A stretch of DNA of 40,662 bases, taken from positions 80,109 through 120,770 of the forward strand of contig JAFTQW010000015.1 of assembly GCA_017462565.1 (NCBI GenBank), given 5' to 3'. Under the pieces are notes generated by a model. That model saw only the letters and a list, made by a program, of their open reading frames with translations, did not search any database and was not told the origin of the DNA. This document shows, one piece after another, positions 3,744 to 40,662 of this stretch. The DNA is from Ruminococcus sp. Its GTDB lineage: Bacteria; Bacillota; Clostridia; Oscillospirales; Ruminococcaceae. Every line of letters begins with the position of its first letter. The stretch's first letter is position 1. Position numbers and translations under genes: made by a program.

Positions 3744-5657
3744 ATGAATAATTTTAAGAATATTGCCGTTGTGGTTGCCGGTCTCGATGAAGAGTACCAG
3801 TATAATATTATTAACGGAATCAACAAGTTTGCTCGTGAAAACGAGATAAATGTCTCTTATTTTGCAGCATTCGGCGGAATGCTCGCAAGCAGACGTTTTG
3901 ACATCGGAGAATACAGTATTTATAATTTTATTGATTTTAAAAAATTTGACGGCGCATTGATTATGACCAATACCATTTGTGATCCGGAGGTCAAGGCAAT
4001 TATTATTGAGAAGTTAAGAAGCTCCGGAATACCTGCTGTTGTTCTTGATAGCTCGGAATATCCTGAATTTTACAGCATTTGTATTGATAATGACAATGCA
4101 ATGGAGGAAATGGTGAACCATATCATTCAGGAACATGGCGCAAAGGTTATCAATTATATTTCCGGACCGCTCTCTAATCCCGATGGTAAGGCAAGATATG
4201 AAGCTTTCCTTAAGGTTATGCGTGAAAATGATCTGAATGTTGAGCCTGAGCGAATCTATTTCGGCGAATTCAGAAGCCACGACGGAAAACTTGCTGTCGA
4301 AGAATTTGCAGAGCGTGAAATGACTCTGCCGGACGCTTTCATATGCGCTAACGACGCTATGGCTCTTACTGCGGTCACAGCCCTTGAAAAGCTTGGATAT
4401 AAAGTTCCCGAAGACGTTATGGTTACGGGATTCGATTATACAAATAATGCAAGGAATTTCTGCCCGGCGCTCACTTCAGTAAAAAGACCGCTGTTCACTG
4501 CCGGATATAAGGCTTGCAGTATAATTTATGACGTTATAAACGGCGGAAAACCGCATAAAGACACAATTCTTGAGGCTTATCCTGTGTTTTCGGAAAGCTG
4601 TGGCTGCACAGATGAATTTTCAGACGATTTCAGAGATTTCAGAAAAACAACTCATAGAAACAAAGAGCGGACGGACTCTAATATCTCAATGCTGAACCGT
4701 CTCACTGCACGTCTTGCGGAAACAGAAACTGCTTCTGAGCTGTTTGATGTTCTTGAAGAATTTGTCGAAGAGATAGGCTGTGAAAAGTTTTCGCTCTGTC
4801 TGAAAGAGGATTGGCAGGAAGCTTATAACGTCAAGCTGATCGACTCGGACGCTGAAGCTGATGCATTTAACGTATTTATGACAGCTCCGCTTATCTGGGA
4901 AAATGGCGAGAGAAGAAATGTTGAATACTTCCCGGCAAATGAGATGAATCCCGAAAAGTTTAAGTCTGGGGGCAACATCAGTTATTTTCTTCCTCTTCAT
5001 TTCGGGGAAAGATGTCTGGGTTATTACATAATCACAAACGGGGATTTTCCGATAAACAGCCTTCTCTGTCATACTCTCACCATGAATATCAGCAATTCTA
5101 TTGAAAATATCCGCAAGCTTCTTCACCTAAATAACGCCATGGATGAGCTGAATCGCCTTTCTGTTATAGATCCTCTTTGCAATATTTATAACAGAAACGG
5201 ATTTATCAACGTTGCGGACGATATGTTTAAGGAATGCGCTGCAAACCATAAGAGCATTATGCTTAGTTTTATTGATATGGATGGACTTAAATTTATTAAC
5301 GATAACTACGGTCATAACGAGGGAGATTTTGCAATCCAAAGACTTGCAAGCACGATTTCTGAATGCTGCGGAAAAGGAAGCGTCTGCGCACGCTTTGGCG
5401 GAGATGAATTCGTTATTTTCGATACCATTGTAAACGACGGCTCGGCTGAAACTCTTGCAAGAAAGTTCGGAGCAAAGATCGACAGCATAAATTCGATCAT
5501 TAAAAAACCGTATACTCTTTCAGCAAGCGTCGGCAGTATAATTACTGTTCCGGAAGAAGGCGATACGCTTTACGGTATAATCAAGCAGGCTGACGATAAA
5601 ATGTACGAAATCAAGAAAACTAAAAAGAATGCGAGAAAATCCGAAAAAATTAAATAA
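3744..5657 (+). CDS. LacI-type periplasmic-binding sensor fused to GGDEF diguanylate cyclase
   Basis: A 637-residue protein with no signal peptide or membrane segment, so it should be cytosolic. Residues about 5-285 match the ligand-binding core of LacI/GalR repressors (NIAVVVAGLDEEYQ at the start; later DAFICANDAMALTAV and GFDYT), but there is no helix-turn-helix. Residues about 310-460 form a GAF-like or coiled linker. Residues about 475-630 are a GGDEF domain with the intact A-site ARFGGDEF, preceded by DMDGLKFINDNYGH. The residues before the A-site (GKGSVCARF) lack the RxxD inhibitory I-site, so product feedback may be absent. The domain should make cyclic di-GMP from two GTP under control of a small ligand, probably a sugar. 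It is divergent from the two solute-binding lipoproteins, which suggests a shared substrate. Confidence 0.88.
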   Translation: MNNFKNIAVVVAGLDEEYQYNIINGINKFARENEINVSYFAAFGGMLASRRFDIGEYSIYNFIDFKKFDGALIMTNTICDPEVKAIIIEKLRSSGIPAVVLDSSEYPEFYSICIDNDNAMEEMVNHIIQEHGAKVINYISGPLSNPDGKARYEAFLKVMRENDLNVEPERIYFGEFRSHDGKLAVEEFAEREMTLPDAFICANDAMALTAVTALEKLGYKVPEDVMVTGFDYTNNARNFCPALTSVKRPLFTAGYKACSIIYDVINGGKPHKDTILEAYPVFSESCGCTDEFSDDFRDFRKTTHRNKERTDSNISMLNRLTARLAETETASELFDVLEEFVEEIGCEKFSLCLKEDWQEAYNVKLIDSDAEADAFNVFMTAPLIWENGERRNVEYFPANEMNPEKFKSGGNISYFLPLHFGERCLGYYIITNGDFPINSLLCHTLTMNISNSIENIRKLLHLNNAMDELNRLSVIDPLCNIYNRNGFINVADDMFKECAANHKSIMLSFIDMDGLKFINDNYGHNEGDFAIQRLASTISECCGKGSVCARFGGDEFVIFDTIVNDGSAETLARKFGAKIDSINSIIKKPYTLSASVGSIITVPEEGDTLYGIIKQADDKMYEIKKTKKNARKSEKIK

Positions 5658-5660
5658 AAA

Positions 5661-5689
5661 TAAGGAGCTGTTCATACAGCTCCTTTTTC
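5661..5689. terminator. Bidirectional rho-independent terminator
   Basis: A 9-bp stem (AAGGAGCTG at 5662-5670 with CAGCTCCTT at 5677-5685) with a 6-nt loop is followed by Ts on the plus strand, and by a T run on the minus strand from the A-rich bases before 5662. It separates the convergent sensor gene and the lysine-operon tail. Confidence 0.85.
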
Positions 5690-5693
5690 ACGT

Positions 5694-6098
5694 TTATTTA
5701 TTTTTCTTATAGCCGAGAAATTTCAGCGCTGCAACAGGATTTCCCAGTTCGTCGCTGACATTTACATTGTAGCAGCAAGTAGTCCTGCCATCCTTGATAA
5801 GCTCGGTTTCGGCTATAATACGTTCAGTTTTCGGAACTCCGACAAATGAGATATCAGTGTTTATTGATACGATTCCGATCTGCTGCCAGTTTGAAGCAAC
5901 AGCAAAAGCAAAGTCGGCGAGAGTGAAATAAACTCCGCCCATTATCCCTCCGGCAGCATTTTTATGATGCTCGTTCAGAGAAAGGCTTACCTTAGCGTAA
6001 TGGTCGTCGATTTCGTCAATAACTGCACCGGCTTCTGTTGCAAAGCGGTCGTTCTGAAAAAGTGAACGAACTCTTTCAAGCTCTTCTTTTGATACCAT
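5694..6098 (-). CDS. PaaI-family hotdog thioesterase
   Basis: A 134-residue single hotdog domain. The central segment GGIMGGVYFTLADFAFA matches the helix and catalytic region of PaaI/YbgC-like acyl-CoA thioesterases, in which an Asp or Glu on the long helix drives hydrolysis. The C-terminal strands (TTCCYNVNVSDELGNPVA) complete the fold. Such enzymes are cytosolic and usually tetrameric, and hydrolyse aryl- or acyl-CoA esters; the substrate cannot be read from sequence. It follows dapB by 12 bp and is the last gene of the lysine operon, ending just before the bidirectional terminator. Its role in lysine synthesis, if any, is unknown; the pathway in some bacteria uses acyl intermediates, but co-transcription may be incidental. 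Confidence 0.85.
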   Translation of the reverse strand: MVSKEELERVRSLFQNDRFATEAGAVIDEIDDHYAKVSLSLNEHHKNAAGGIMGGVYFTLADFAFAVASNWQQIGIVSINTDISFVGVPKTERIIAETELIKDGRTTCCYNVNVSDELGNPVAALKFLGYKKNK

Positions 6099-6110
6099 TT
6101 TAACTACCCC

Positions 6111-6860
6111 TTAAACGAGAGCCGACATATCATAAAGTCCGGCTGACTGATTTTTAAGGAAAACAGCCGCATTGATTGAACCCTCGGCAAAAACTGTTTT
6201 TGAAGCTGCTGAATGAGAAAGGGTGATAACTTCGTCATGTCCGGCAAAAATGATATCATGTTCACCAACGATCGTTCCGCCTCTTATTGCGTGCATACCG
6301 ATCTCGCTCTTTTCACGTTTCTGACGGCGGGAATGACGGTCGTAAACGTAATGCTTTGAATTATCAAGAGTTTCGTTGATAGCGTTTGCGATCATTATTG
6401 CAGTTCCGCTCGGAGCGTCGAGCTTCTGATTATGGTGTTTTTCAACAATTTCAATGTCGAACTGATCTCCGAGAACCGATGCAGCTTTTTTTGCAAGCTG
6501 AACAAGCAGATTGATTCCGAGGGACATATTGAATGTGAAAAATACCGGAATCTGCTGTGCTGCATTTTTTATCTGATTTATCTGCTCATCGTTGTAGCCT
6601 GTTGAAGCGAGGACTACCGGAGTTCCGGTAGAAAGGCAGTAATCAAGCAGGGCGTTCAGCGAAGCAGGATTTGAAAAATCAATAATAACATCGGCTTTTA
6701 CCGGAAGCTTGTCCGGAGCGTCAACGATAGGAAAATCGGCGTACTGCTCGGTGTAGATATCTATTCCGGCAACGACTTTGCAGTCATCGCGCTCCTGAAT
6801 ACAGCTGTAAATGGTTTTGCCCATTTTGCCGTTTGCGCCGCATATAACTATATTTGTCAT
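6111..6860 (-). CDS. dapB: 4-hydroxy-tetrahydrodipicolinate reductase
   Basis: A 249-residue enzyme that reduces hydroxy-tetrahydrodipicolinate with NAD(P)H in the lysine/diaminopimelate pathway, in the cytosol. The Rossmann motif GANGKMG lies at residues 8-14, and the family signature KHHNQKLDAPSGTA, carrying the catalytic His pair and substrate-binding Lys, lies mid-protein. Length is normal for the family (about 240-270). The ATG at 6860 is preferred over an in-frame GTG at 6869 because AAGGAG sits 8 bases before the ATG but abuts the GTG. It starts 12 bases after the small lipoprotein gene ends and 12 bases before the thioesterase gene, consistent with one operon. Confidence 0.96.
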   Translation of the reverse strand: MTNIVICGANGKMGKTIYSCIQERDDCKVVAGIDIYTEQYADFPIVDAPDKLPVKADVIIDFSNPASLNALLDYCLSTGTPVVLASTGYNDEQINQIKNAAQQIPVFFTFNMSLGINLLVQLAKKAASVLGDQFDIEIVEKHHNQKLDAPSGTAIMIANAINETLDNSKHYVYDRHSRRQKREKSEIGMHAIRGGTIVGEHDIIFAGHDEVITLSHSAASKTVFAEGSINAAVFLKNQSAGLYDMSALV

Positions 6861-6872
6861 TAAAAACACTCC

Positions 6873-7388
6873 TTAATTTGGATATACTCTCCATTCATCA
6901 TCAGTGCAGTAAACGTATACCGGCACCGTGTAGGTTTCGTTATTGTAGCTGATATCAAGATAAACACAATATCCGTCGGTTATCTCCATCGGAGAAATGT
7001 TGACATCATTATATTCATCTCCGATATCATCATATATTTCTTCAAGCTGTTCATCATCAAGCTTTTCCTTTTTTTCGATTTCGTATGTAGAATAAGGCGC
7101 TTCGCCTGAAGCCACTCCCAAATCGTCCATCCAATCATCGTATATTTCGGTATCTTGAATAGCTTCCAGATATCTTGAGGGCAGTATTGCTTCAAGCATT
7201 GCGTCAGCATCATTGTTGTTTGAAGCATTAAAAAATCTTTTTATTGCAGCTTCATATGAATCGTTTTCATTTTTGGTGCTTTCTGATATCTTAGTTTTCG
7301 CTTTTTCGTCATTATTATCATTGCCGCATGATGAAAAAGCGCATACAGTAATTGCTAAAGAAATTATACCGGCAATAATTCTTTTCAT
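6873..7388 (-). CDS. Small lipoprotein of unknown function in the lysine operon
   Basis: A 171-residue predicted lipoprotein: MKRIIAG, a hydrophobic stretch, then lipobox AFSSC with the Cys near residue 21, and an Asn/Asp/Lys-rich linker. The mature part begins with a helix containing FFNASNNNDADAMLEAILP, which resembles the start of small NTF2-like or DUF4878-type lipoproteins, and ends in beta strands (DISYNNETYTVPVYVYCTDDEWRVYPN). I do not recognise a specific family. It should sit on the outer face of the membrane, an odd place for a member of a biosynthetic operon. It lies between dapA (about 64 bp upstream) and dapB (12 bp downstream). Confidence 0.8.
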   Translation of the reverse strand: MKRIIAGIISLAITVCAFSSCGNDNNDEKAKTKISESTKNENDSYEAAIKRFFNASNNNDADAMLEAILPSRYLEAIQDTEIYDDWMDDLGVASGEAPYSTYEIEKKEKLDDEQLEEIYDDIGDEYNDVNISPMEITDGYCVYLDISYNNETYTVPVYVYCTDDEWRVYPN

Positions 7389-7452
7389 GAATTTCTCCTT
7401 TGAATTACAGGGCGAAGGGGTCGGTCTTATGACCCATTCGCCCTTAGCTTTA

Positions 7453-8343
7453 TTACTTTATAAGACCATGCTTAGCAAGCGCAGCTCTGAGTACTGACTT
7501 ATGCTCATCTGACATTTCGCAGAGCGGCAGACGGCAAGGTCCGACATTCCAGCCTGTCATATTGAGAGCTTCTTTTACCGGAATCGGATTTACTTCAATA
7601 AAGAGAGCGTTTATAAGGTCGAGATACTTAATCTGCATTTCAGTTGCCTTGGCAAAATCGTTGTCGAGACAAAGCTGAACCATATCGTGAGTCTCTTTCG
7701 GGAGAATATGCGAAAGAACTGAAATTACTCCCTTTCCGCCGAGAGACATAACAGGAACGATCATATCGTCGTTTCCGCTGTATATGTCGATGCTGTCGCC
7801 GCATTCGGCAATGAGCTTGGCAGTATAGCTGATATTTCCGCTTGCTTCTTTTACAGCGGCGATATTCTTATGCTTTGAAAGCTCCTTAACGGTTGCGATA
7901 TCCATATTCATGCCGGTTCTTCCCGGAATATTATAAAGGATGATCGGTATGCTTACAGCGTCTGCAATTGCGGAGAAGTGGAGAATAAGACCTTTCTGCG
8001 TTGTCTTATTGTAATAAGGAGTAACGAGAAGAAGAGCGTCTGCCCCTGCCGCTTCGGCTTCTTTTGAAAGCTCGACGGCATATTTAGTATCGTTGCTTCC
8101 TGTACCTGCGATTACCGGAATCCTTCCGGCAGTTCTTTTAACTGCAAATTTGATGCACTCAAGATGCTCCTCATCGGTCATAGTGGAGGCTTCACCGGTA
8201 GTGCCGCAGATAATAATTGCGTCGGTATGATTTTCGATCTGATGATCTATCATTTCTCCGAGACGGTCATAATTAATAGATCCGTCGTCATTGAACGGTG
8301 TGACAATGGCAATGCCGGCACCGGTAAAAATTGTATTTTTCAT
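7453..8343 (-). CDS. dapA: 4-hydroxy-tetrahydrodipicolinate synthase
   Basis: A 296-residue class I aldolase-type TIM barrel that condenses pyruvate with aspartate semialdehyde, the committed step to lysine and diaminopimelate. Key residues are visible: the GTTGE loop at 47-51, the Tyr at about 137 in LYNIPGRTG, and the Schiff-base Lys at about 165 in AAVKEASGN. Length is typical. It follows the GNAT gene by 15 bases and shares the lysine-riboswitch transcript. AAGGAG precedes the start at 8343. Bacterial DapA is often feedback-inhibited by lysine at the tight dimer interface; here the riboswitch gives a second layer of control. Confidence 0.97.
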   Translation of the reverse strand: MKNTIFTGAGIAIVTPFNDDGSINYDRLGEMIDHQIENHTDAIIICGTTGEASTMTDEEHLECIKFAVKRTAGRIPVIAGTGSNDTKYAVELSKEAEAAGADALLLVTPYYNKTTQKGLILHFSAIADAVSIPIILYNIPGRTGMNMDIATVKELSKHKNIAAVKEASGNISYTAKLIAECGDSIDIYSGNDDMIVPVMSLGGKGVISVLSHILPKETHDMVQLCLDNDFAKATEMQIKYLDLINALFIEVNPIPVKEALNMTGWNVGPCRLPLCEMSDEHKSVLRAALAKHGLIK

Positions 8344-9984: not shown

Positions 9985-10172
9985 GCAGACAAGCTGTATG
10001 CCGATAGCTCTCCATCATAAAGTGAATGATGACAGTCACAAACCTATTAAGCCTGTGACCAGAACTGAGTTTACCAAAAACAGTTCTTCGGCGGCATTGC
10101 CTTTCACCATTCACCATAGGAGCGGTAATCCCGTGAATAGCTACTCATCGCAGCCGCACCTCTACCTGTATA
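9985..10172 (-). promoter_or_regulatory. Lysine riboswitch (L box)
   Basis: The minus strand carries the conserved L-box blocks in order: AGGTAGAGGTGCGG near 10168-10155, a GATGAGTAG segment, GGTGAAAGGC then GCCGCCGAAG near 10108-10086, paired arms forming the long outer helices, and TGGAGAGCTATCGG near 10015-10001. Spacing and order match the lysine aptamer. It lies between a consensus promoter and a terminator ahead of asd and the dap genes, so bound lysine should favour termination. Aptamer ends are approximate. No other aptamer class fits these blocks. Confidence 0.95.
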
Positions 10173-10178
10173 TTTACT

Positions 10179-10207
10179 ATAATATCACTTAATTTTTCTT
10201 ATGTCAA
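10179..10207 (-). promoter_or_regulatory. Sigma-A promoter of the lysine operon
   Basis: TTGACA (10207-10202) and TATTAT (10184-10179) are separated by 17 bases on the minus strand, placing the transcription start about 10172, at the 5' edge of the lysine aptamer. Confidence 0.88.
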
Positions 10208-10313
10208 TACTTTTTGAAAAAAATTTGCAGTAATGTGTGTTTTCCGGCATATAACGGCGATTCTGTTTTTCTTAACCTTGGCGAAAGAATGCTTACTCTA
10301 TTGGGCGCAGACC

Positions 10314-10419
10314 TGATTTTCTGAAATTTCTTTGAGAAATTTCAGAAAATCAATATCGGGTTTCCAAAGGGGATGTACTCCCCTTTGGCAGAGGGTTTAA
10401 GGGAGACAGCGTCTCCCTT
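10314..10419. repeat. Dispersed palindromic repeat R1 with adjacent perfect hairpin
   Basis: Three stem-loops in a row. First a perfect 18-bp AT-rich stem (10314-10331 with 10335-10352, loop TTG). Five bases later comes the conserved repeat, opening with GGGTTTCC and forming CCAAAGGGG/CCCCTTTGG (10364-10388). Then AAGGGAGAC/GTCTCCCTT (10399-10419). Related sequences occur at 12409-12902, 27674-27838 and 31290-31398. It lies in the queA leader, about 25 bases before the queA start, so its stem may affect queA expression. There is no T run, so it is not an ordinary terminator. The gene-free stretch 10208-10313 shows nothing else I can name. Confidence 0.85.
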
Positions 10420-10445
10420 GCATTGCCGGAGAAAGGAGATAAAAT

Positions 10446-31183: not shown

Positions 31184-31312
31184 ATGCTGAAAAAAGATGA
31201 AATAGTACAGAAACGAGACCCTTTAAGATATTGGAATCTATGCTTGTATATTTTTATCGGAGCGACAGCATTTACTTTTCTGTTAGTTATTAAGGGGACT
31301 CTGTCCCCTTAA
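31184..31312 (+). pseudogene. Short membrane-type frame ending in repeat R5
   Basis: A 42-codon frame (MLKKDEIVQKRDPLRYWNLC, then a hydrophobic helix ending FTFLLVIKG) beginning 7 bases after the MITE-like element. It looks like a fragment of a small membrane protein, lacks a ribosome site, and its final codons (KGTLSP) come from the palindromic repeat. The element insertion may have removed its original start. It may be untranslated. Confidence 0.35.
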
Positions 31313-31398
31313 ACCCCTGCCAAATGGTGAATTCACCCTTTGGAAACCCACAATTAAATTATTACAAATACCCCATAAAGGGGTATTTGTAATAATTT
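31290..31398. repeat. Dispersed palindromic repeat R5 (inverted orientation) with adjacent perfect hairpin
   Basis: Read on the minus strand, this is GGGTTTCC, then CCAAAGGG/...TTTGG (31343-31320), then TTAAGGGGAC/GTCCCCTTAA (31312-31290), the same order as R1. Five bases beyond its 5' end is a perfect 19-bp hairpin (31356-31374 with 31380-31398, loop ATAAA) unrelated in sequence to the hairpin next to R1. Confidence 0.85.
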
Positions 31399-31512
31399 AG
31401 GAAGAATCCCCAGACGGAAATATACCGTTCAGCAGGAAATTAAAGAAACAAAGTCCGCTTGATAAATATAAAAAAGTAAATGCTGTCACCGTGGAAAAAA
31501 GCTTTCTGTCTA

Positions 31513-32057: not shown

Positions 32058-32084
32058 ATTCCCCTTGAAAGGATGTTTAATATA

Positions 32085-33674
32085 ATGAGCGAAAATCTTA
32101 AAAATAATTCCGGTCAGGCTGCTGAGACTGAACAGGATATAAATATTCTCAAAAAAGACCGTCTTAATAAGCTTGCTGATTTAAGAGAGCTTGGGAAAGA
32201 TCCGTATCAGATAACAAAGTTTGATGTAACAGGTCATGCAGCTGACTATAAGGCTGAATATGAAGCAAAAGAAGCAGAGATAATTGCTGCCTGCGGAGAT
32301 GACGAGGAGAAGAAAACCGCTGAAATAGAGGCTCTTCACGCATCAACTGTCAGAATTGCAGGACGTATTATGAGCTGGAGAGATATGGGGAAGGCTAACT
32401 TTATCGATCTTCGTGACGGCTCAGACCGCATTCAGGTTTATATCCGTTCCAACGATGTCGGAGCAGACCTCTTCAAGGAGTTCAAGAAAAAATGGGATAT
32501 CGGTGATATCATTGGTGTTGAGGGCTTTGTTTTCAGAACTAAAAAGGGTGAGATATCTGTTCATGCCCGCAACATCGTGTTGCTTTCAAAATCTCTTCTT
32601 CCTCTTCCTGAAAAATGGCATGGACTCAAGGATCAGGATATGAGATATCGTCAGCGTTATGTTGACCTTATCGTGAATCCGGATGTTAAGGATACATTCG
32701 TGAAGAGAAGCCGTATTATAAGCGAGGTAAGAAATTATCTTGATAATCTTGGCTATATTGAAGTCGATACGCCTGTTCTTCACACTCTTGAAATCGGCGC
32801 TGCCGCCAGACCGTTTATTACTCATCATAATACACTTGATATGGATATGTACCTCAGAATCGAAACAGAGCTTTATTTAAAGCGTCTTATTGTCGGTGGA
32901 TTTGAGAAAGTTTATGAGGTCGGACGTATTTTTAGAAACGAGGGTATGGATACTTCTCACAATCCGGAATTTACTTCTGTTGAAATGTATCAGGCATACA
33001 CCGATTATATCGGAATGATGGATCTTATTGAGAATATGTACAGAACTATCGCTGAAAATGTTTGCGGAACTTCTAAGATCACTTATCAGGGAGTTGAGAT
33101 CGACCTTGGTAAGCCTTGGGAACGTCTTACCATGGTTGAAGCTGTTAAGAAGTATGCCGGAGTTGACTATAACGAATGGGAAGACGATGCTGCTGCCCGT
33201 GACTGCGCTAAAGAAAAGGGCATTGAGGTTGACGAGGGTGAAGCCGCAACAAAGGGTCATGTTCTTATTGCATTTTTCGACGCTTTTGTTGAAGATAAAC
33301 TTATTCAGCCTACTATTATTTACGATTATCCGGTTGAAAATTCTCCGCTTGCAAAGAGGAAGCCTTCAGATCCGGCATTTACAGAGCGGTTTGAGTATTT
33401 CATCTACTGCCGTGAAATGGGCAACGCTTTCTCAGAGCTTAACGATCCTATCGACCAGAAGGAACGTTTTGTAAAACAGGTTGAGGCTAAACGTGCTCAG
33501 GGAGCAAATGCAGAGGTTGATGAAGATTTTGTAACGGCTCTTGAATACGGTCTGCCTCCAACGGGAGGTCTTGGCTTCGGTCTTGACAGACTCGTTATGC
33601 TCCTTACAGACAGCGCTTCGATCAGGGATGTTCTGCTGTTCCCGACGATGAAGCCTCTCCCGAACGAAAACTAA
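32085..33674 (+). CDS. lysS: Lysyl-tRNA synthetase, class II
   Basis: 529 residues from the ATG at 32085; an in-frame ATG at 32073 abuts the GAAAGG site and is less likely. It charges tRNA-Lys. The OB-fold anticodon domain is at about 60-170 (RIAGRIMSWRDMGKANFIDL), class II motif 1 around TPVLHTLEIGAAARPF, motif 2 GRIFRNEGMDTSHNPEFT, and motif 3 GLGFGLDRLVML near the C-terminus. The length is slightly above the usual 490-505 because of a longer N-terminus. No terminator is seen behind it: the mobile island begins within about 40 bases. Confidence 0.97.
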   Translation: MSENLKNNSGQAAETEQDINILKKDRLNKLADLRELGKDPYQITKFDVTGHAADYKAEYEAKEAEIIAACGDDEEKKTAEIEALHASTVRIAGRIMSWRDMGKANFIDLRDGSDRIQVYIRSNDVGADLFKEFKKKWDIGDIIGVEGFVFRTKKGEISVHARNIVLLSKSLLPLPEKWHGLKDQDMRYRQRYVDLIVNPDVKDTFVKRSRIISEVRNYLDNLGYIEVDTPVLHTLEIGAAARPFITHHNTLDMDMYLRIETELYLKRLIVGGFEKVYEVGRIFRNEGMDTSHNPEFTSVEMYQAYTDYIGMMDLIENMYRTIAENVCGTSKITYQGVEIDLGKPWERLTMVEAVKKYAGVDYNEWEDDAAARDCAKEKGIEVDEGEAATKGHVLIAFFDAFVEDKLIQPTIIYDYPVENSPLAKRKPSDPAFTERFEYFIYCREMGNAFSELNDPIDQKERFVKQVEAKRAQGANAEVDEDFVTALEYGLPPTGGLGFGLDRLVMLLTDSASIRDVLLFPTMKPLPNEN

Positions 33675-33709
33675 GAAAATAACGGGGTTTTGATAGGTTT
33701 TGCCGGGTT

Positions 33710-33941
33710 TCGTTAATCCAAATTTAACCCGAAAAAAGGGGTTTACGACAAATTTACGACAAATGACTTCGAGGACAAAGGCGGATTTTTACGACAAATG
33801 GCTGTCGTAAACACCGTGAATCGAAAATCGTTAATCCAGTGGCTTCATTGTAGTGGCTACATTGTAAAAACGGCAAAAAATCCTTATAAAATGGGTGTCC
33901 GCAGTCGTTTACGACAGGAAAATCCAAACTATTTACGACAA
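33710..33941. repeat. Cluster of TTTACGACAAA repeats, candidate integrase arm or att region
   Basis: TTTACGACA(AA) occurs in direct orientation at 33742, 33753, 33788, 33908 and 33932, with one inverted copy at 33803-33811. TCGTTAATCCA occurs at 33710-33720 and 33828-33838. Such clusters are typical of tyrosine-integrase arm sites at element ends. The gene-free stretch 33675-34052 holds this cluster and the terminator at 33949. Confidence 0.65.
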
Positions 33942-33948
33942 CAAAAAC

Positions 33949-33984
33949 AGAGCTTCAATCTTACGGTTGAGGCTCTATTTTTTT
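33949..33984 (+). terminator. Rho-independent terminator inside the island
   Basis: AGAGCTTCAA (33949-33958) pairs with TTGAGGCTCT (33967-33976), allowing one wobble, around an 8-nt loop, followed by eight Ts. The gene it ended is no longer present. Confidence 0.8.
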
Positions 33985-34052
33985 GTCTGAAAATCGTATC
34001 CTTTCCTGATTTCTGTTTTTTCGTATAATGAAGATGTCAGGAGGTGCAATAG

Positions 34053-34232
34053 TTGAAGCAAAAGGATTTTCATATATATTTAACCGAGCAGGAACGCACT
34101 CAGGTCATAGGTGCTTTGATTGAACTCAAAAACAGCCTTATAGCACAAGGCAGATATACCGACGCAGTAGACGATATACTTATAAAACTTACGAAGGCTC
34201 GAAAGAAACGCCTTGCTGTGCATTACATTTGA
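34053..34232 (+). CDS. Small conserved-looking protein of the conjugative element
   Basis: A 59-residue protein with a TTG start at 34053, 7 bases after AGGAGGTG. The sequence begins MKQKDFHIYLTEQERTQVIG and ends with a basic tail (KARKKRLAVHYI). It has a helical, charged look without signal or membrane segments. I associate such small frames with the parA side of Tn1549-like elements, but no function is known. A strong terminator follows at 34245. Confidence 0.7.
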   Translation: MKQKDFHIYLTEQERTQVIGALIELKNSLIAQGRYTDAVDDILIKLTKARKKRLAVHYI

Positions 34233-34244
34233 ATAAGATAGGTT

Positions 34245-34288
34245 AAGCCGCTTGTTTCTCTTATTTGAGAAGCAGGCGGCTTTTTTTG
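34245..34288 (+). terminator. Strong rho-independent terminator
   Basis: A 16-bp stem (34245-34260 with 34267-34282, two wobble pairs) with loop TTATTT, followed by Ts. It ends the small TTG-start gene. Confidence 0.85.
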
Positions 34289-34323
34289 CGTTCTAAAAAT
34301 TTTTTTGAAAAAATTTCAAAACA

Positions 34324-34364
34324 GAGTCCCCAAAGGGTGTCTCTCAGTGGGAACAAGTGAAGGG
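34324..34364. repeat. 41-bp direct repeat, left copy
   Basis: Begins GAGTCCCCAA and ends CAGTGGGAACAAGTGAAGGG; matches 35 of 41 bases with 40301-40341. The two copies bracket the decayed conjugation genes. Confidence 0.8.
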
Positions 34365-34388
34365 GGTTAAAAACCACTCCTAAACGGA

Positions 34389-34700
34389 GTGCCTCCCTTC
34401 GCTGCATTTTGACAACTGAATACACAGGCACTAAGGACTTTATTTCTGATGATTAGCCCGAAGGAGGGTACGCCATAACCTCTCTTTTATGAGAGCAAGC
34501 GAGAACTCCCGTCCTGAAACTCGGATTGCTACCGAGATTGGCAATGACAGTCAGAATGATAATGATACTTCCCTATGGGGCTGGCGGAGAACCCGGCAGA
34601 GGTGAAATCCCTATGATACGGTGCAGCACACCGTAACCTTAGTGCTTCCCACAAGGGCAGGCGGTGTAAACGGTCTGCCCTCCGCAGGGGTAGTTGAGAA
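34389..34700 (+). ncRNA. Candidate structured leader RNA upstream of parA
   Basis: The 580 bases between the small gene and parA contain a dense run of stem-loops: GTGCCT/AGGCAC (34389-34431), CTCTC/GAGAG (34480-34495), CTCGG/CCGAG (34520-34536), TACGGTG/CACCGTA (34617-34635) and GGGCAG/CTGCCC (34655-34680). There is no reading frame of note. TTGACA at 34409-34414, with a poor -10 17 bases on, could start a transcript. It may be a regulatory RNA or leader, or an origin-like region of the element; no known RNA family is recognised. Confidence 0.4.
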
Positions 34701-34722
34701 CAAATACTGCGGCTGATACATA

Positions 34723-34795
34723 GCCGACTTTATATAAGATCGGTTATGAATACAGCGAAGCCGATTTATATAAGATCGGTTATGAATATAGCGAA
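34723..34795 (+). repeat. Tandem 36-37 bp repeat just upstream of parA
   Basis: Two near-identical units (34723-34759 and 34760-34795) share TATATAAGATCGGTTATGAA and end in AGCGAA, 18 bases before the parA start. The position suggests a ParA operator or centromere-like site, by analogy with partition loci. Confidence 0.75.
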
Positions 34796-34812
34796 AGGAG
34801 GAAAAGCGAAAG

Positions 34813-35508
34813 ATGTCAAACTGTAAAACCATAGCGATATGCAATCAGAAAGGCGGCGTGGGCAAAACCACAACGGCGGTCAATCTCGGTATCGGTCTTG
34901 CTATGCAGGGTAAAAAGGTACTCCTTGTGGACGCTGATCCACAGGGAGATTTAACGACCTGTCTCGGCTGGCAGGAAACAGACGAGCTTCCCATCACAAT
35001 TTCGGATAAGCTGTTGTCCGTTATAATGGATAAGAATGAAAATCCGTATGACGGTATTCTTAGGCACGAGGAAGGCGTGGATTTAGTTCCGTCCAATCTT
35101 GATTTATCGTCAATGGAAATGAGCCTTGTCACCGCTATGTGCAGAGAGATGGTAATGAAGAATTACCTGAGTGAAATCAAAAACGGCTATGATTATGTTC
35201 TCATAGATTGTATGCCTTCGCTCGGTATGATTACCCTTAACGCACTCACAGCGGCGGACAGCGTGATTGTACCCGTGCAGGCTCAGTATCTTCCGGCGAA
35301 AGGAATGACGCAGCTTCTAACAACTATATCCAGTGTGAAGCGGCACTCAAATCCGCAGTTAAATATTGACGGGATACTCCTAACCCTTGTGGACGGAAGA
35401 ACAAACCTTGCCAAAAGTACCGTAGACGCATTGCGTGAGCAGTTCGGAAGCCATATCCGTACAGACAGGTTCTACCACGATTGTAGAAATGCACAATGTT
35501 CTGCGTGA
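34813..35508 (+). pseudogene. parA: ParA-family ATPase, 3' end lost and fused to foreign sequence
   Basis: The first 216 or so residues are a good ParA: Walker A QKGGVGKTTTAVNLG, DADPQGDLTTCLGW, DCMPSLGMITLNAL and ILLTLVDGRTNLAKSTVDAL. At about 35458 the similarity ends after FGSHIR, and 14 unrelated residues (TDRFYHDCRNAQCSA) follow before a stop. Full-length relatives run to about 260-275 residues, so the C-terminal helices are missing. In such elements ParA acts with DNA-segregation functions to keep the circular form. The start has AAAGGAGG. The other frame at the join encodes the end of a surface protein. Confidence 0.85.
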
Positions 35509-35635
35509 TACGCCGAAAACCGGGGACGACAGCAATCCCGGACTTTGGATTGCACTTGCGGGACTTTCCCTGATCGGCATTACCGCCTGCGGTATTGTAG
35601 GCTTTAAGAAAAAGAAGAAGGGAGAGAATCAGTAA
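35459..35635 (+). pseudogene. C-terminal sorting-signal fragment of a cell-wall surface protein
   Basis: 59 residues of the end of a Cna-B/SpaA-type adhesin: VQTGSTTIVEMHNVLRD, then a TPKTGDD sorting motif, the hydrophobic span GLWIALAGLSLIGITACGIV, and the basic tail FKKKKKGENQ. The motif TPxTG fits class B sortases, one of which (broken) lies at 39313. The frame extends back to a GTG at 35435, but that part is parA DNA. No N-terminus or ribosome site belongs to it. The stop codon shares a base with the start of the 30-residue gene. Confidence 0.85.
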
Positions 35636-35727
35636 TGGAGCTTAAAACCATTATCGCTATCGTATTAGTCGCTTTTATCATCGGCGGCTTTATTTTTTTG
35701 CAGGTACGAAACAAAAAGAAGAAATAA
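35635..35727 (+). CDS. 30-residue single-span membrane protein
   Basis: MELKTIIAIVLVAFIIGGFI begins a 30-residue protein made of one membrane helix and a QVRNKKKK tail. Its ATG overlaps the surface-protein stop (TAATG), with GGGAGAG a few bases upstream. It probably accompanied the surface-protein gene in the intact element. Function unknown. Confidence 0.6.
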   Translation: MELKTIIAIVLVAFIIGGFIFLQVRNKKKK

Positions 35728-35761
35728 CGGACTGGGGGCGGAGGTTGTTGGGGTCCCCACG

Positions 35762-36148
35762 GAGTCATTTAGACTTGCAGAAGCCTTAAAAGCAGATTTA
35801 GCCGTGTTCCTTAAAGAAAAACTGAACCTTACACTGTCAGTGGAGAAAACCAAAATCACCCACGCAACTGACCGGGCGAGATTTCTTGGATATGATATTT
35901 CTATCTCAAAAAGCCAGGAAGTCACAAAACGCCAGGGCAGGAAAGTGAAAGGGTACAGCGGCGCAATGAAACTGTATATGCCGCATGAAAAGTGGGAAGC
36001 GAAACTGTTAGAGTATGGTGCAATCCGTATCAAGAAAGACAAAGTTACACAAAAAGAGCATTGGAAAGCCATCCACAGACCACAGTTCATTAACCGCAAA
36101 GATATTGAGATTCTGTCAAAGTACAACTCTGAAATCAGGGGGCTGTGC
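35762..36148 (+). pseudogene. Group II intron reverse transcriptase/maturase, internal fragment
   Basis: About 129 residues from the thumb/domain X part of an LtrA-like protein: ADLAVFLKEKLNLTLSVEKT, ATDRARFLGYDISIS, KWEAKLLEYGAI, then EHWKAIHRPQFINRKD and SKYNSEIRGL. The catalytic YADD box and everything before it are missing; the frame breaks after RGL where a typical protein continues with YNYYRIANN-like sequence. No domain V/VI of an intron RNA is found on either side. It is a relic carried in by deletion or recombination. The continuing frame to 36283 is chance. Confidence 0.85.
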
Positions 36149-36161
36149 GGGAGAGCCGAGT

Positions 36162-36401
36162 CAGAATGTAGGCAAGAGCTTTATCAAGAGCTACTGCGCT
36201 GTCTGCTTGGAGGGTGCTGTCATTGTTTTAGCGTGTATCATCTTTTCGCTCTTTGCCGCTTCGCCGCCTGTTGTCAATCCTGACGCTGCGGCGGTAACAC
36301 AGGTGTGGGCATATATCGGGGAACTGCTCTTTAATATGTTGGTGCTTGTCGGAGCTGTGAAAATGAGCGACCGGATTATCCGTGAGATGATGGGACTTTA
36401 A
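36162..36401 (+). pseudogene. VirB6/TrbL-like membrane protein, C-terminal fragment
   Basis: 80 residues: QNVGKSFIKSYCAVCLEGAV followed by IVLACIIFSLF, a PPVVNPDAAAV loop, then GELLFNMLVLVGAVKMSDRI and a REMMGL end. The pattern G.SFIKSY.A.CLE followed by a hydrophobic span matches the end of VirB6-like proteins in the conjugation channel. The N-terminal membrane part is missing, replaced by maturase DNA. It lies just before the small Cys-rich gene and PrgI, the expected position in such elements. The family call is inference. Confidence 0.6.
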
Positions 36402-36411
36402 GGAGAACGAA

Positions 36412-36603
36412 ATGAAATATATCTACAACAGATTTGAGGGATACACCCTTAAAGATTGCGACTGTCAATACTGCCTTTACTCCGGAGGAAAGCGAAAAGG
36501 CAAAATAACCTGTCTTGCAGACGAGTGTGTCTGTGCCGATGAAATCCGCAGGGCGAAGGAACGCAGCCGCAAGGAAAGGAGCTTTAATGGAAGTAAAAAT
36601 TAA
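36412..36603 (+). CDS. Small Cys-rich protein of the conjugative element
   Basis: 63 residues with CDCQYC, then ITCLADECVCADEIRRAKER and a basic tail. The Cys spacing (CxCxxC and CxxxxCxC) suggests a small zinc or iron-sulphur knuckle. AAGGAG lies 8 bases before the start. It overlaps the start of PrgI by 17 bases, so they are probably translated together. It is typical of Tn1549-like conjugation modules; function unknown. Confidence 0.75.
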   Translation: MKYIYNRFEGYTLKDCDCQYCLYSGGKRKGKITCLADECVCADEIRRAKERSRKERSFNGSKN

Positions 36604-36952
36604 CCGTGAAATCAGAAATTACACGGAAGCGATGTTTTTCGGACTGTCTTTAAGACAGTTCATTTTTTCAGTCTGTGCCTGTGCGGTGGCGGTAGGACTT
36701 TATTTCCTGCTGAAACCCTATGTCGGCACGGAAACCGTATCGTGGATGTGTATTTTGGGAGCTGCACCCTTTGCAGTTCTCGGCTTTATCAAATACAACG
36801 GAATGACCGCAGAGAAATTTATCTATGCGTGGATAAAATCGGAGTTTCTTATGCCGAAGAAGCTCGTCTTTCATTCCACCAACACCTACTTTGAGCTGAT
36901 GAAGCCGGGTATGGAAAAGAAGCAGAAGGAGGTTTTGAAATCAAATGATTAA
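36587..36952 (+). CDS. prgI: PrgI-family conjugation membrane protein
   Basis: 121 residues from the ATG at 36587, 7 bases after AAGGAG; an earlier frame start at 36515 lies inside the preceding gene. N-terminal MEVKINREIRNYTEAMFFGL is the PrgI signature, followed by two membrane helices (RQFIFSVCACAVAVGLYFLL and WMCILGAAPFAVLGFI) and a cytosolic tail. It is the VirB3-like partner of VirB4 in Gram-positive type IV secretion. It overlaps the VirB4 gene by 8 bases. Confidence 0.9.
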   Translation: MEVKINREIRNYTEAMFFGLSLRQFIFSVCACAVAVGLYFLLKPYVGTETVSWMCILGAAPFAVLGFIKYNGMTAEKFIYAWIKSEFLMPKKLVFHSTNTYFELMKPGMEKKQKEVLKSND

Positions 36953-39278
36953 AACGCTTACCAATTTATTCAAACAGGATAAGGAAAAGTTTGTTGTGCC
37001 GAAGGGCGTTCAGAATGTGATCCCCATTGCCGCCATTTATGATGACGGCATTTTTCAGGTTGGCAGGGACAAATTTTCTAAGACCTTTAAGTTTTCGGAT
37101 ATAAACTACGCCGTGGCAAGCCGTGAAGATAAGGAAGCGATGTTCCTTGAATACTCGGAGCTGCTTAACTCTCTTGATTCCGGTGCAACGACAAAAATCA
37201 CAATCAACAACCGCCGCTTAAACAGGCTGGACTTTGAGAAAACAATCCTGATTCCAAAGACGGGCGATGAGCTGGACGAGTACCGTGAGGAATACAACAA
37301 AATGCTGCTCGAAAAGGCTACCGGGGCAAATGCTATCGTGCAGGATAAGTATATGACAATCTCGGTCAATAAGAAGAATGTGGAGGACGCCCGTACTTAC
37401 TTTGCCCGTGTGGGAGCTGACCTGATCGCCCATTTTGGCAGGCTCGGCAGCAAATGCGTAGAGCTTGAAACGGACGATCGACTTCGTATCTTCCACGACT
37501 TCTACCGTGTGGGAGAAGAAACCGCCTTCCACTTTGACATTAAGGAAACACGCAAAAAGGGACACAGCTTTAAGGACTATATCTGCCCGGATTCAATGGA
37601 ATTTGAAAAGGACTATTTCAAGATGGGAAACCGTTACGGCAGAGTTCTTTTTCTCCGTGAGTATGCCTCCTATATCAAGGACAGTATGGTGGCGGAGCTG
37701 ACTGACCTGAACCGAAACCTGATGATGTCGATTGATGTTGTTCCCGTTCCAACAGATGAAGCAGTCAGAGAAGCAGAAAGCCGATTGCTCGGCGTAGAAA
37801 CGAACATAACGAACTGGCAGCGCAGGCAAAATTCCAACAACAATTTTTCCGCAACCGTTCCCTATGATATGGAGCAGCAGAAAAAGGAAATGAAGGAGTT
37901 TCTCGATGATTTGACGACGAGAGATCAGCGAATGATGTTTGCTGTCCTGACAATGGTGCATACGGCGGAGACAAAGGAACAGCTTGACAATGATACCGAA
38001 GCTCTGCTTACCACAGCGAGAAAGCACCTTTGTCAGTTCGGCGTTCTGAAATTTCAGCAGATGGACGGGTTGAATACGGTTATGCCTTTCGGCACACGAA
38101 AGATTGACACCTTCCGCACCCTGACTACGGAATCATTGGCTGTGTTCATTCCGTTCCGGGTACAGGATATTTACCACGAGAACGGCATTTATTACGGTCA
38201 GAATGTAATCAGCAAAAATATGATTATCGCTGACCGTAAGCAGTTACTCAACGGCAACGAGTTTATCTTGGGCGTATCCGGCGGTGGTAAATCTTTTGCC
38301 GCAAAGGGCGAGATTATCAATCAGGTATTATCAAGCAATGCCGATATAATCATTATTGATCCGGAGCGAGAGTATTCACAGCTCGTAAAGGCAATGGGCG
38401 GCGAGGTTATACACATCTCCGCCACCTCTGCAAACCATATCAATGCTATGGATATGACGAAGGAATACGGAGACGGTGCAAACCCGGTTATCCTGAAATC
38501 CGAGTTTATTATGTCGCTGTGCGAGCAGCTTATCGGCGGCACGAACTTGGGAGCGAAGCAGAAATCTATTATTGACCGCTGCACCGCTTCGGTTTACCGC
38601 ACCTATCAGCAGAATGACTATAAAGGCGAAGTGCCTACTTTGCAGGACTTCCGTAATGAACTTTTGAAGCAGGACGAGCCAGAAGCAAAGGAAATAGCCC
38701 TTGCCATTGAGCTTTTCACCAACGGTAGCCTGAATACCTTTGCAAAGCATACCAATGTGGATACCAATAACCGCCTGATCTGCTATGACATTCTCGACCT
38801 CGGCAAGCAGCTTATGCCTATCGGTATGCTTGTCGTGCTTGACAGTATCTTAAACCGCATTACACAGAACAGGGCGAAAGGCAGAAATACCTTTATCTTC
38901 ATAGACGAGATTTATTTGCTGTTCCAGCACGAGTATTCCGCTAACTTCCTGTTTACCTTGTGGAAGCGAGTCAGAAAGTACGGAGCTTATGCAACAGGTA
39001 TCACGCAGAATGTTGACGATCTCTTGCAGAGCCATACCGCAAGGACAATGCTCGCAAACTCTGAATTTATCATTATGCTCAATCAGGCTTCCACCGACCG
39101 CTTGAAACTTGCCGAGCTGCTCAACATCTCTGATTTACAGATGAGCTATATCACCAATGTGGAAGCCGGACACGGATTGATTAAGGTGGGCAGCTCCCTT
39201 GTGCCGTTTGCGAATAAGTTTCCCAAGAATACAAAGCTCTATAAGTTAATGACAACCAAACCGGGCGAGAGTGCGTAA
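36945..39278 (+). CDS. virB4: VirB4/TraE-family conjugation ATPase
   Basis: A 777-residue ATPase that powers the type IV secretion channel. N-terminal domain residues 1-400 (VIPIAAIYDDGIFQVGRDKF and a long helical part), then Walker A in GVSGGGKSFAAKGE at about 447, DPEREYSQLVKAMGGE, Walker B IFIDEIYLLFQHEYS and the TGITQNVDDLL helix. Length is normal and no break is visible, so this gene may still be intact although its partners are not. It overlaps prgI by 8 bases. Confidence 0.94.
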   Translation: MIKTLTNLFKQDKEKFVVPKGVQNVIPIAAIYDDGIFQVGRDKFSKTFKFSDINYAVASREDKEAMFLEYSELLNSLDSGATTKITINNRRLNRLDFEKTILIPKTGDELDEYREEYNKMLLEKATGANAIVQDKYMTISVNKKNVEDARTYFARVGADLIAHFGRLGSKCVELETDDRLRIFHDFYRVGEETAFHFDIKETRKKGHSFKDYICPDSMEFEKDYFKMGNRYGRVLFLREYASYIKDSMVAELTDLNRNLMMSIDVVPVPTDEAVREAESRLLGVETNITNWQRRQNSNNNFSATVPYDMEQQKKEMKEFLDDLTTRDQRMMFAVLTMVHTAETKEQLDNDTEALLTTARKHLCQFGVLKFQQMDGLNTVMPFGTRKIDTFRTLTTESLAVFIPFRVQDIYHENGIYYGQNVISKNMIIADRKQLLNGNEFILGVSGGGKSFAAKGEIINQVLSSNADIIIIDPEREYSQLVKAMGGEVIHISATSANHINAMDMTKEYGDGANPVILKSEFIMSLCEQLIGGTNLGAKQKSIIDRCTASVYRTYQQNDYKGEVPTLQDFRNELLKQDEPEAKEIALAIELFTNGSLNTFAKHTNVDTNNRLICYDILDLGKQLMPIGMLVVLDSILNRITQNRAKGRNTFIFIDEIYLLFQHEYSANFLFTLWKRVRKYGAYATGITQNVDDLLQSHTARTMLANSEFIIMLNQASTDRLKLAELLNISDLQMSYITNVEAGHGLIKVGSSLVPFANKFPKNTKLYKLMTTKPGESA

Positions 39279-39312
39279 CTCTCGCCTTTGCCTTATAAAG
39301 AAAGGAAAGTCT

Positions 39313-40059
39313 ATGAAAAAAACAATTTGTATCATTCTGATTGTGGCGTTTGTTGCTTTGTTTGGCACAAGCGCCTATTTTATTTATGACCATTACAGAC
39401 AGGAAGAACAGCAGGCGGAGCTTTACGACAGCCTTGCCGATATAGTGGATTCTGCCGCAGAAACAGAGGAAGAACCCACAGAGCCGATTTTATATACAGA
39501 AGAAAAAACGGTGCTGCCGGAGCTTGCCGAATTGTATCAGCAGAACAGCGATTTAGCGGGCTGGATTCGCATAGAAGATACTAATATCAATTATCCGGTA
39601 ATGCACACGCCGGATAATCCTGACTTCTACCTGAAGCACGGCTTTGACAAGGAATACAGCGACTATGGCTGTCCTTATGTGCAGGAGAATTGTGATGTGC
39701 AGTTACCGAGCGACAATGTGGTTATCTACGGACACCATATGAAAAATGGCAGTATGTTTGCCGATCTTGAAAAATTCAAAAGTCAGGACTTTTGGCAGGA
39801 GCATAAGACTTTTTTCTTCAGCACCGTAACGGACAGATATGAATATGAGATTGTTTCCGTGTTCAAGACATTTGTTTATTCGGACAGTCCTGAATCCTTT
39901 AAGTATTATCACTTTGTAAACGCTGAAATGCCGGAGGATTTCTCCGCATTTGTTGACAAGTGCAAGGAGCTTTCCCTTTATGATACCGGAGTATCAGCAG
40001 AATACGGGGATAAGCTGATAAGGTCAGAGGTCATATTTATTCGCTGGAGGAGGATTTAG
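39313..40059 (+). pseudogene. srtB: Class B sortase lacking its catalytic cysteine
   Basis: 248 residues from the ATG at 39313 (AAAGGAAAG before it). An N-terminal membrane anchor (IILIVAFVALFGTSAYFI) is followed by the sortase fold: DLAGWIRIEDTNINYPVM, YGCPYVQENCDV, the catalytic His in VVIYGHHMKNGSMFADL, and the late strand ending YGDKLI. A complete SrtB goes on with TLSTC (nucleophile) and a later Arg; here YGDKLI is followed by unrelated residues (RSEVIFIRWRRI) from a sigma-factor gene. The protein should be inactive. The surface-protein tail upstream carries its likely substrate motif, TPKTG. Confidence 0.85.
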
Positions 40060-40337
40060 AAGAACATCACCCTGAAATAGCCGTAGAGGATTGCGTGTCT
40101 CAGATTTTTGCACAGGAGCAAAGCCGAGAGCTTTTGGGAGCAATAAACTCTCTGAACGAGAAACAAAGGAAGCGGCTCATTGCTTATTATTTTGAGGGAA
40201 AAACCTATCGGGAGATTGCCGATGAGGAAGGTGTCGATCATAAAGCCATAGTTCATAGTGTTGAGATCGCCTTAAAAAATCTAAGGATTTTCTTGGAGGC
40301 GAGTCCCCAAAAGACCTTTCCCAGTGGGAACAAGTGA
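40032..40337 (+). pseudogene. Sigma-70-like factor, C-terminal fragment fused behind the sortase
   Basis: About 101 residues: HIYSLEEDLEEHHPEIAVED, then QEQSRELLGAINSLNEKQ and a sigma region 4-type helix-turn-helix KTYREIADEEGVDHKAIVHS. The N-terminal part is missing, cut at the join with the sortase. In intact elements this class of small sigma factor sits near the integrase end, so the join removes much of the element. The last residues (ASPQKTFPSGNK) are encoded by the 41-bp repeat, not by the family's normal end. Confidence 0.85.
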
Positions 40338-40341
40338 AGGG
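40301..40341. repeat. 41-bp direct repeat, right copy
   Basis: The right partner of 34324-34364 (35 of 41 bases). It overlaps the end of the sigma fragment and supplies its stop codon. It marks the approximate right limit of recognisable element DNA. Confidence 0.8.
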
Positions 40342-40511
40342 ACTTGTTCCTATTCCGGATATGGAACGCCTTTCAAATACTTATATTGAGCGGAATTTAT
40401 ATAATATCCACATTATAACAAACAAAGCCGAAAAAATCAATGCCAAACATTATTCGTCCGGTTTTCTGCATTATTCGTCCAAAAATTATGGGAATACAGA
40501 TTTTGAATTGT

Positions 40512-40662
40512 TTACGATCCCGTTCCGCTGTATTTCATTGCGCCATACATCCAGAATTTGTAACTTAGCCAGAAGAACAGTACACCAATCAGCGGCGACA
40601 GCCATGACAGCATGGGTACTTCATCCGGACGGAGTATCACAATGCTCGGATAGTATGCAATA
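40512..40662 (-). CDS. ABC-2 family transporter permease, 5' end outside the window
   Basis: 49 codons of the C-terminus, running off the right edge. The sequence reads IAYYPSIVILRPDEVPMLSW, a membrane span LIGVLFFWLSYKFWMYG, then MKYSGTGS and a stop at 40512. This matches the end of the ABC-2 permease family with a final transmembrane helix and a YSGTGS tail. It should belong to an ATP-driven exporter whose other genes lie outside. It looks chromosomal or native, on the far side of the decayed element. Confidence 0.75.
   Translation of the reverse strand, partial: IAYYPSIVILRPDEVPMLSWLSPLIGVLFFWLSYKFWMYGAMKYSGTGS

Follow-up and report, generated by a model that had tools for sequence, protein, structure and literature searches.

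A Tn1549-type ICE at lysS in a Ruminococcus genome, very probably cut to a small remnant by several separate deletions

In streptococci, lysS is a recorded target of ICEs (PMC4701971). Decayed ICEs (dICE) have been reported from the same hosts, together with a Tn1549-family remnant that was too decayed to detail, and a dICE is defined by defects in one or two signature genes or by one missing extremity (PMC4701971). At lysS islands, a 13-bp repeat nearly identical to the core described below has been reported (PMC8301612). Here, a locus of Ruminococcus sp. was compared with these systems and with fuller elements in related genomes. It is very probably a Tn1549-type ICE at lysS which several separate deletions have cut to a remnant of ~6.7 kb.

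The window, that is, the whole analysed stretch of 40,662 bases, corresponds to G000:C40:80109-120770, and its final base (40662) is also the final base of the contig. The remnant sits between lysS (32073-33674, plus strand), a 533-aa ORF which is the chromosomal insertion target, and the end of a permease-like gene on the minus strand (40511-40662). The lysS of the window showed 92% nucleotide identity to that of the congener G031 over 1-1598. The right flank, the C-terminus of the permease-like gene, was 86% identical to G031:C11:1435954-1436105, "permease" being our reading of the ORF in G031. The attL core TTCCCGACGATGA (33639-33651, plus strand) was the sole window match to TTCCCRACRATGA with at most one mismatch. 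At least one such match was also obtained in 19 of 100 shuffles, and it is the position inside lysS that carries weight. The same search (at most one mismatch) found no second copy of the 13-bp core right of the element in the window. Elsewhere in the window, we observed a copy of an interspersed repeat of ~200 bp (31290-31489), with at least 20 similar places in the same genome, and a lysine riboswitch on the minus strand (9997-10172; RF00168, 113.7 bits). No resistance genes were found among the ORFs scanned (10 chosen from 51).

A search with the VirB4 of the window retained 80 of 552 related stretches, among which L043 from a Lachnospiraceae MAG (genome G060) was nearest, with 99% protein identity. 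The best E value was 0 in 14 of the 18 genomes compared, which excludes chance. The G060 element spans ~49.3 kb. It begins with the lysS core at 2274 and ends with an imperfect second core at 51592 (coordinates of the G060 stretch), which has 12 of 13 bases as in the published repeat TTCCCGACAATGA (PMC8301612). The element carries parA, a 1411-aa pilin, a 3132-aa protein, a TOPRIM protein, MobC, relaxase (PF03432, 131.6 bits), VirD4 (NF045973, 523.7 bits), virB6-like, PrgI, VirB4, sortase, a CHAP protein, FeoB, sigma, a MazF-like toxin and a tyrosine integrase with a Tn916 N-terminal DNA-binding domain; VirB4, sortase and parA were assigned there by homology to the window. Between its virB6-like gene and prgI, G060 holds ~0.8 kb extra (33681-34621, L142), in which an ORF of 232 aa lies; neither the window nor G063 has this stretch. 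In G063, a second element at lysS, neither a second core in the 60 kb read nor a sigma or mazF gene was found, so that G060 alone serves as complete parent. The annotated Monoglobus pectinilyticus element (NZ_OY725736.1) showed the same backbone order. Among plasmid records, 26 had a match and none covered 80%; the best was Monoglobus, which was used as the annotated reference. Among phage records, 25 had a match, again none covering 80%, and the 5 listed were unannotated fecal contigs matching virB6 to sortase.

Four blocks of the window aligned to G060 in the same order and on the same strand: 33300-35459 (83%), 35457-35743 (95%), 36143-36416 (90%) and 36574-40021 (91%). The G063 element matched window 34125-35457, 35459-35727 and 36146-40019, and the nucleotide identity of the element blocks was 83-95% to G060 and 70-80% to G063. 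The initial annotation had described a mosaic of Tn1549-type functions in plausible order, and ParA, the pilin tail, the VirB6-like C-terminus, PrgI, VirB4, sortase and sigma were indeed found. Its four fusions (about 35458, 35730-35765, 36150 and 40020-40032) were placed by the relatives within 10 bases of, or inside, those positions. The alignment to Tn1549-like elements also carried the element beyond the end given there (40345) and added a fifth join near 40393, which that annotation did not have.

At the left end, a 59-aa ORF is intact (34053-34232, plus strand), with homologues 78% identical in G060 and 68% in G063. It is followed by the left copy of a paired direct repeat (34324-34364, plus strand), 85% identical to 40301-40341 and with equivalent pairs in relatives, and by a pemK RNA motif upstream of parA (RF02913, 34559-34616, plus strand; 69.8 bits, gathering 34.8). 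The motif was also observed ahead of parA at L143, L240, L251 and L253, and the right-end loci L141, L236 and L237, which carry mazF-like genes, gave no match to RF02913. The parA gene (34813-35508, plus strand; ParA PF13614, 2e-60) is truncated at join 1, leaving 215 parental codons followed by ~16 foreign codons and a stop, compared with 276 aa for G060 parA. Join 1 (35457-35459) fuses parA to the pilin 3′ end with a 3-bp overlap, CCG, and ~6.1 kb from the parA 3′ end to the pilin are absent relative to both G060 and G063.

The piece behind join 1 (35459-35743, plus strand) holds the last 58 codons of a SpaA-like LPXTG pilin gene and a downstream stretch, 95% identical in nucleotides to G060 10146-10432. 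The LPXTG models matched the tail weakly (Pfam 0.003, below cut-off), yet it was 97% identical in amino acids to the G060 pilin end. The piece stretches to the middle of a terminator-like hairpin of the parent, GGGCGGAG/CTCCGCCC, which is cut by join 2 at 35743. Behind it lies a remnant of a group II intron reverse transcriptase (RT)/maturase gene (35777-36145, plus strand; TIGR04416, 3e-5). Its alignment covers residues 354-476 of a group II intron RT of 632 aa, and it shows 53% amino acid identity to the RT of L048. A live group II intron was considered and dropped: the full RT/maturase ORF is not present, residues 354-476 alone remaining, and no Rfam intron match, domain V included, was obtained in the window at the gathering threshold. 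Besides its own locus, the scrap matched L048, L122 and L094 alone among the loci compared, and in all three a group II intron with a full RT gene lies inside virD4 (5220-7736, 4723-7239 and 4827-7374, respectively), at an identical insertion site in L048 and L122. The virD4 genes there were recognised by likeness to G060 VirD4 and by comparison with intron-less relatives. In the 391 genomes of the class, a search for nucleotide parents of the scrap gave no close one: matches turned up in 4 genomes besides its own, over ~25-225 bases, the longest 66% identical. Because the three relatives carry their introns in virD4 and collinearity would place the scrap there, the ancestral element probably had a group II intron, with virD4 as its most likely site.

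At join 3 (36143-36146), with an overlap of presumably ~1 bp, the intron ORF meets a virB6-like membrane protein gene, of which the N-terminus is lost and the C-terminal 84 codons remain (36147-36401, plus strand; 84 of 84 residues identical to G060). The name VirB6-like is given by position, no family model having matched. Across joins 2 and 3, 23 kb are absent relative to G060, relaxase and coupling protein included. A small ORF of 63 aa, also found in relatives, is retained (36412-36603, plus strand). The next two genes were described as intact by the initial annotation, which holds for both: prgI (36587-36952, plus strand) matched PF12666 at 7e-33, and virB4 (36945-39278, plus strand; CD1110 family, 777 aa) matched NF045971 at full length, with 1055 bits against a cut-off of 325, all 752 model positions covered and 99.1% amino acid identity to G060. 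A CD1110-family VirB4 with PrgI directly upstream, as in Tn1549-type ICEs, is present. A class B sortase gene follows (39313-40059, plus strand; TIGR03064, 8e-40, 137 bits, below the cut-off of 154), truncated just ahead of the TLSTC motif, which we take to hold the active-site Cys; the G060 and G063 parents run on into TLSTC. The cut frame stops 38 nt past join 4 (40019-40021, from G060/G063 alignments), at which the sortase gene meets a sigma factor gene and ~10 kb, from the sortase 3′ end to sigma, are absent relative to G060.

The sigma piece (40026-40337, plus strand) is the C-terminal half of a sigma-70-like factor of the element (sigma-70 region 4, PF08281, 9e-9), 39% identical over 102 residues to the sigma of the Monoglobus element. 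A search for its nucleotide parents gave no close one, matches in 8 genomes besides its own being all short and the 81 bp in G399 alone being useful; in viral contigs it had no match. An origin of the sigma half from a second element at tRNA-Glu was rejected, the orientation of the integrase piece on contig C53 presumably putting sigma on the opposite strand. The right copy of the paired repeat (40301-40341, plus strand; 85% to 34324-34364) overlaps the sigma-mazF spacer (40338-40393, plus strand), the last recognisable element sequence, which was 89% identical to G399 over 40313-40393. At join 5 (40393-40395), element passes into chromosome: G399 homology stops at 40393, and promoter-like homology to G083 and G117 begins at 40394/40395. 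The promoter-region-like stretch ends 30 bases ahead of the permease-like match. Within it, 40395-40481 carries two ATTCGTCC direct repeats and is 73-83% identical to the G117/G083 regions, which adjoin genes resembling exported proteins and sensor kinases; these labels, and that of a "LytTR-type site", are our own reading. Right of join 5, mazF, regulators, integrase and attR are gone. Integrase, relaxase and coupling protein had been called missing before, and neither the mobC-relaxase-virD4 nor the mazF-integrase stretch of G060 gave a blastn match in 33674-40662. By tblastx, the same stretches gave one short match, between the 59-aa ORF at 34053 and a small ORF region before virD4.

The choice posed initially was between serial deletions eroding the element and a chimeric contig. 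For joins 1-4, serial deletion is far likelier than chimerism as judged from the sequence, because parental order and strand are kept relative to G060 and G063 and the overlap at join 1 is 3 bp only. Such an overlap is too short for a k-mer join, there are no Ns, and k-mer misassembly at join 1 was thus ruled out. Join 1 is the sole full measure of overlap, joins 2-4 being not fully measurable with an intron scrap and a sigma half that lack close nucleotide parents. Random joining would give the observed order on one strand with a chance of ~1 in 192 for four blocks, or 1 in 1920 with the intron scrap, and the region is single copy in the genome apart from six matches of ~30-205 bp. That the contig joins element pieces which are non-adjacent in the cell is accordingly improbable, even with the region reaching the contig end and other element fragments present in the genome, such as the integrase piece beside tRNA-Glu on C53 and parA-like matches near the ends of C52, C1 and C27. 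We infer that the joins are real features of the cellular DNA, beyond the assembly itself. None of the alignments from other genomes spanned any of the five joins (258 loci, 174 with a match), so far making the five-join layout unique to the present assembly, which is compatible with both hypotheses. The four join sequences had no exact match (0 of 4) in viral_contigs, a weak test in a collection of viruses. The initial annotation would have taken a full element at the same place in a related genome as a sign of an artefact; this rule does not apply here, and the fuller elements of other genomes show the parental layout.

The chimera reading keeps its footing at join 5. In all five congeners with both flanks on one contig (G031, G012, G035, G008 and G086), lysS and the permease-like gene are non-neighbours, 89-601 kb apart, and join 5 therefore calls for a rearrangement of the chromosome, unless it is a misjoin. 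In the same genome, the gene which neighbours lysS in G031 sits at the end of contig C26, and the tRNA-Glu neighbour of the permease-like gene is on C53, where a transposase and an integrase fragment adjoin it. The gene order left of lysS differs from G031 as well, making a genuine rearrangement plausible. Join 5 may reflect such a rearrangement or a misjoin at 40393. As for C53 itself, an integrase C-terminus beside tRNA-Glu was observed at L215 13300-15358 (G000:C53), interrupted by a transposase at the contig end; the transposase is IS3-like by domain reading, and the arrangement is a trace of another integrated element.

Because the channel ATPase might have been kept by selection, as suggested initially, the conservation of prgI and virB4 was compared with that of the dead pieces. 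Both genes are 97.5-99.1% identical in protein to G060, and their window-G060 dN/dS was 0.020 for virB4, the lowest of the set, and 0.044 for prgI. For the dead pieces it was 0.049 (parA), 0.095 (pilin tail), 0.046 (virB6-like) and 0.077 (sortase). The virB6 piece is protein-identical to G060, "non-synonymous" counts there being multi-step codon changes only. A low virB4 value is expected from slower virB4 evolution before the cut, since the window-G063 comparison, which predates the cuts, gave 0.044 for virB4 versus 0.099 for parA. When changes were polarised by outgroups, those in the dead pieces numbered 23 (synonymous) and 9 (non-synonymous) for the window branch, compared with 25 and 14 for the G060 branch (Fisher p = 0.61); prgI and virB4 had 42 and 6 versus 39 and 5 (p = 1.0). 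The polarised counts are small, as 209 positions that differ could not be placed on either branch across prgI, virB4 and the four dead pieces; the number is 224 when the 63-aa ORF is added, which was left out of the pooled test with 23 codons only aligned to G060.

Dead pieces and intact genes thus both showed low dN/dS without a branch shift, and selection on prgI-virB4 is unsupported: certainly dead pieces are about equally conserved on the same branch. That the pair is kept by selection, for example to serve another element in the cell, is very unlikely. A relaxase gene on C27 and a second VirB4, 35% identical, on C28 could be read in its favor, but the VirB6-like and coupling proteins of the same channel are destroyed; domestication of virB4/prgI was likewise rejected for want of contrast with the dead pieces. 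The neutral share of the window branch for the dead pieces was at most ~19% (one-sided 95% bound, no baseline subtracted). With so low a share, the deletions seem to be young compared with the split, and the decay looks recent enough for the intact virB4 to need no special cause. That a key gene seems intact can be no more than a sign of recent death, and dead neighbouring fragments offer a cheap control before orphan virB4 genes are called selected.

Traces of other elements are present in the genome. Relaxase matches were obtained on C27, on C9 and weakly on C39, and none on C40; the C27 relaxase lies at G000:C27:3103-3516 and the C28 VirB4 at G000:C28:174715-177003. Nothing ties the C27/C9 relaxases or the C28 VirB4 to the remnant. 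The remnant has lost integrase, relaxase, coupling protein, attR and the larger part of the VirB6-like protein, and as far as the gene content tells, self-driven excision and transfer should be impossible. We also considered a compact functional element, mobilizable or satellite, instead of a relic. The survival of attL, of the left stretch with the pemK RNA motif and of both paired-repeat copies would suit it; the locus has no recombinase, relaxase or attR, however, five element genes are cut in mid-frame, and no alignment from any other genome crosses the five joins, leaving it barely conceivable.

The paired direct repeat deserves separate description. A repeat of ~41-57 bp, with a first copy ahead of parA and a second in the sigma-mazF interval, was found in 8 of 8 testable elements (the window, G060, Monoglobus, G399, G067, G069, G070 and G071b). 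G063, G065, G066, G071a and G072, with no sigma or mazF in the stretch read, stood outside this count. The pairs lie at 34324-34364 and 40301-40341 in the window and at L141/L143, L235/L236, L237/L240, L249-L252 and L255-L258. Within an element, the two copies were 82-100% identical, and identity between dissimilar elements was 50-78%, G069 being dropped from this table as its 53-mers equal those of Monoglobus. In the alike trio G067, G070 and G071b, repeats were 92-100% identical across elements and the within-element match was not always the best; concerted evolution is thus suggested, not proven. The pair may reflect concerted evolution or shared element-specific operators, and our guess is a putative regulator-binding site specific to each element. 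From its position in intact relatives and the seeming joint evolution, it may be likened to the operators of an immunity group. That the remnant is not inert, its attL, pemK RNA motif and repeat pair titrating or regulating an incoming sister element at lysS, is a long shot. For such a paired repeat in Tn1549 elements, and for pemK RNA, nothing on point was found in the literature as judged by titles. For a C. difficile element, att repeats, sigma factors and a group II intron RT are described, and the portion of that report at hand mentions no such paired repeat (PMC3158075).

Taken together, the remnant keeps the parental order, with joins between its blocks, genes missing and one att site missing. 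The preferred course, serial deletion, would run as follows. A Tn1549-type ICE, ~49 kb in the closest complete relative, would have integrated at the 13-bp core near the lysS 3′ end. One deletion would have removed the parA 3′ end through most of the pilin gene, and deletions on either side of the intron scrap the region that starts behind the pilin gene and includes relaxase, virD4 and the larger part of the virB6-like gene. Another would have taken the sortase 3′ end and all that follows up to and including the first half of sigma, and the entire part right of sigma, integrase and attR included, would have been lost. We infer the number of these events; they would have proceeded by end-joining with little homology, the overlap being measured at join 1 alone, and prgI and virB4 would have come intact through a young decay. 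The locus offers a well-resolved case of conjugative element decay, with segments lost and tiny homology at the one fully measurable join.

Compared with Tn1549-type ICEs carrying the CD1110/CD1115 module (G060, G063 and Monoglobus), the remnant is alike in gene order, VirB4 family, PrgI, pilin and sortase. The sigma factor is common to the remnant, G060 and Monoglobus, and the lysS site to the remnant, G060 and G063. It differs in that ~6.7 kb are left of ~49 kb (G060), without integrase, relaxase, VirD4 or attR. The vanD islands Tn6711-Tn6713 are reported with the same lysS 3′ target and a nearly identical 13-bp repeat, also without conjugation genes; they span 112-126 kb with vanD, whereas the window holds a small remnant in which part of a conjugation module is kept (PMC8301612). 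The dICEs described in streptococci share signature-gene loss together with one lost end, but the remnant is more decayed, with 3 of 4 signature genes missing (PMC4701971). "Remnant" therefore fits better than dICE: one extremity is missing, but 3 of 4 signature genes are gone. It is of a known kind, a Tn1549-type ICE remnant at the known lysS site, and represents an ordinary fate in an unusually legible example.
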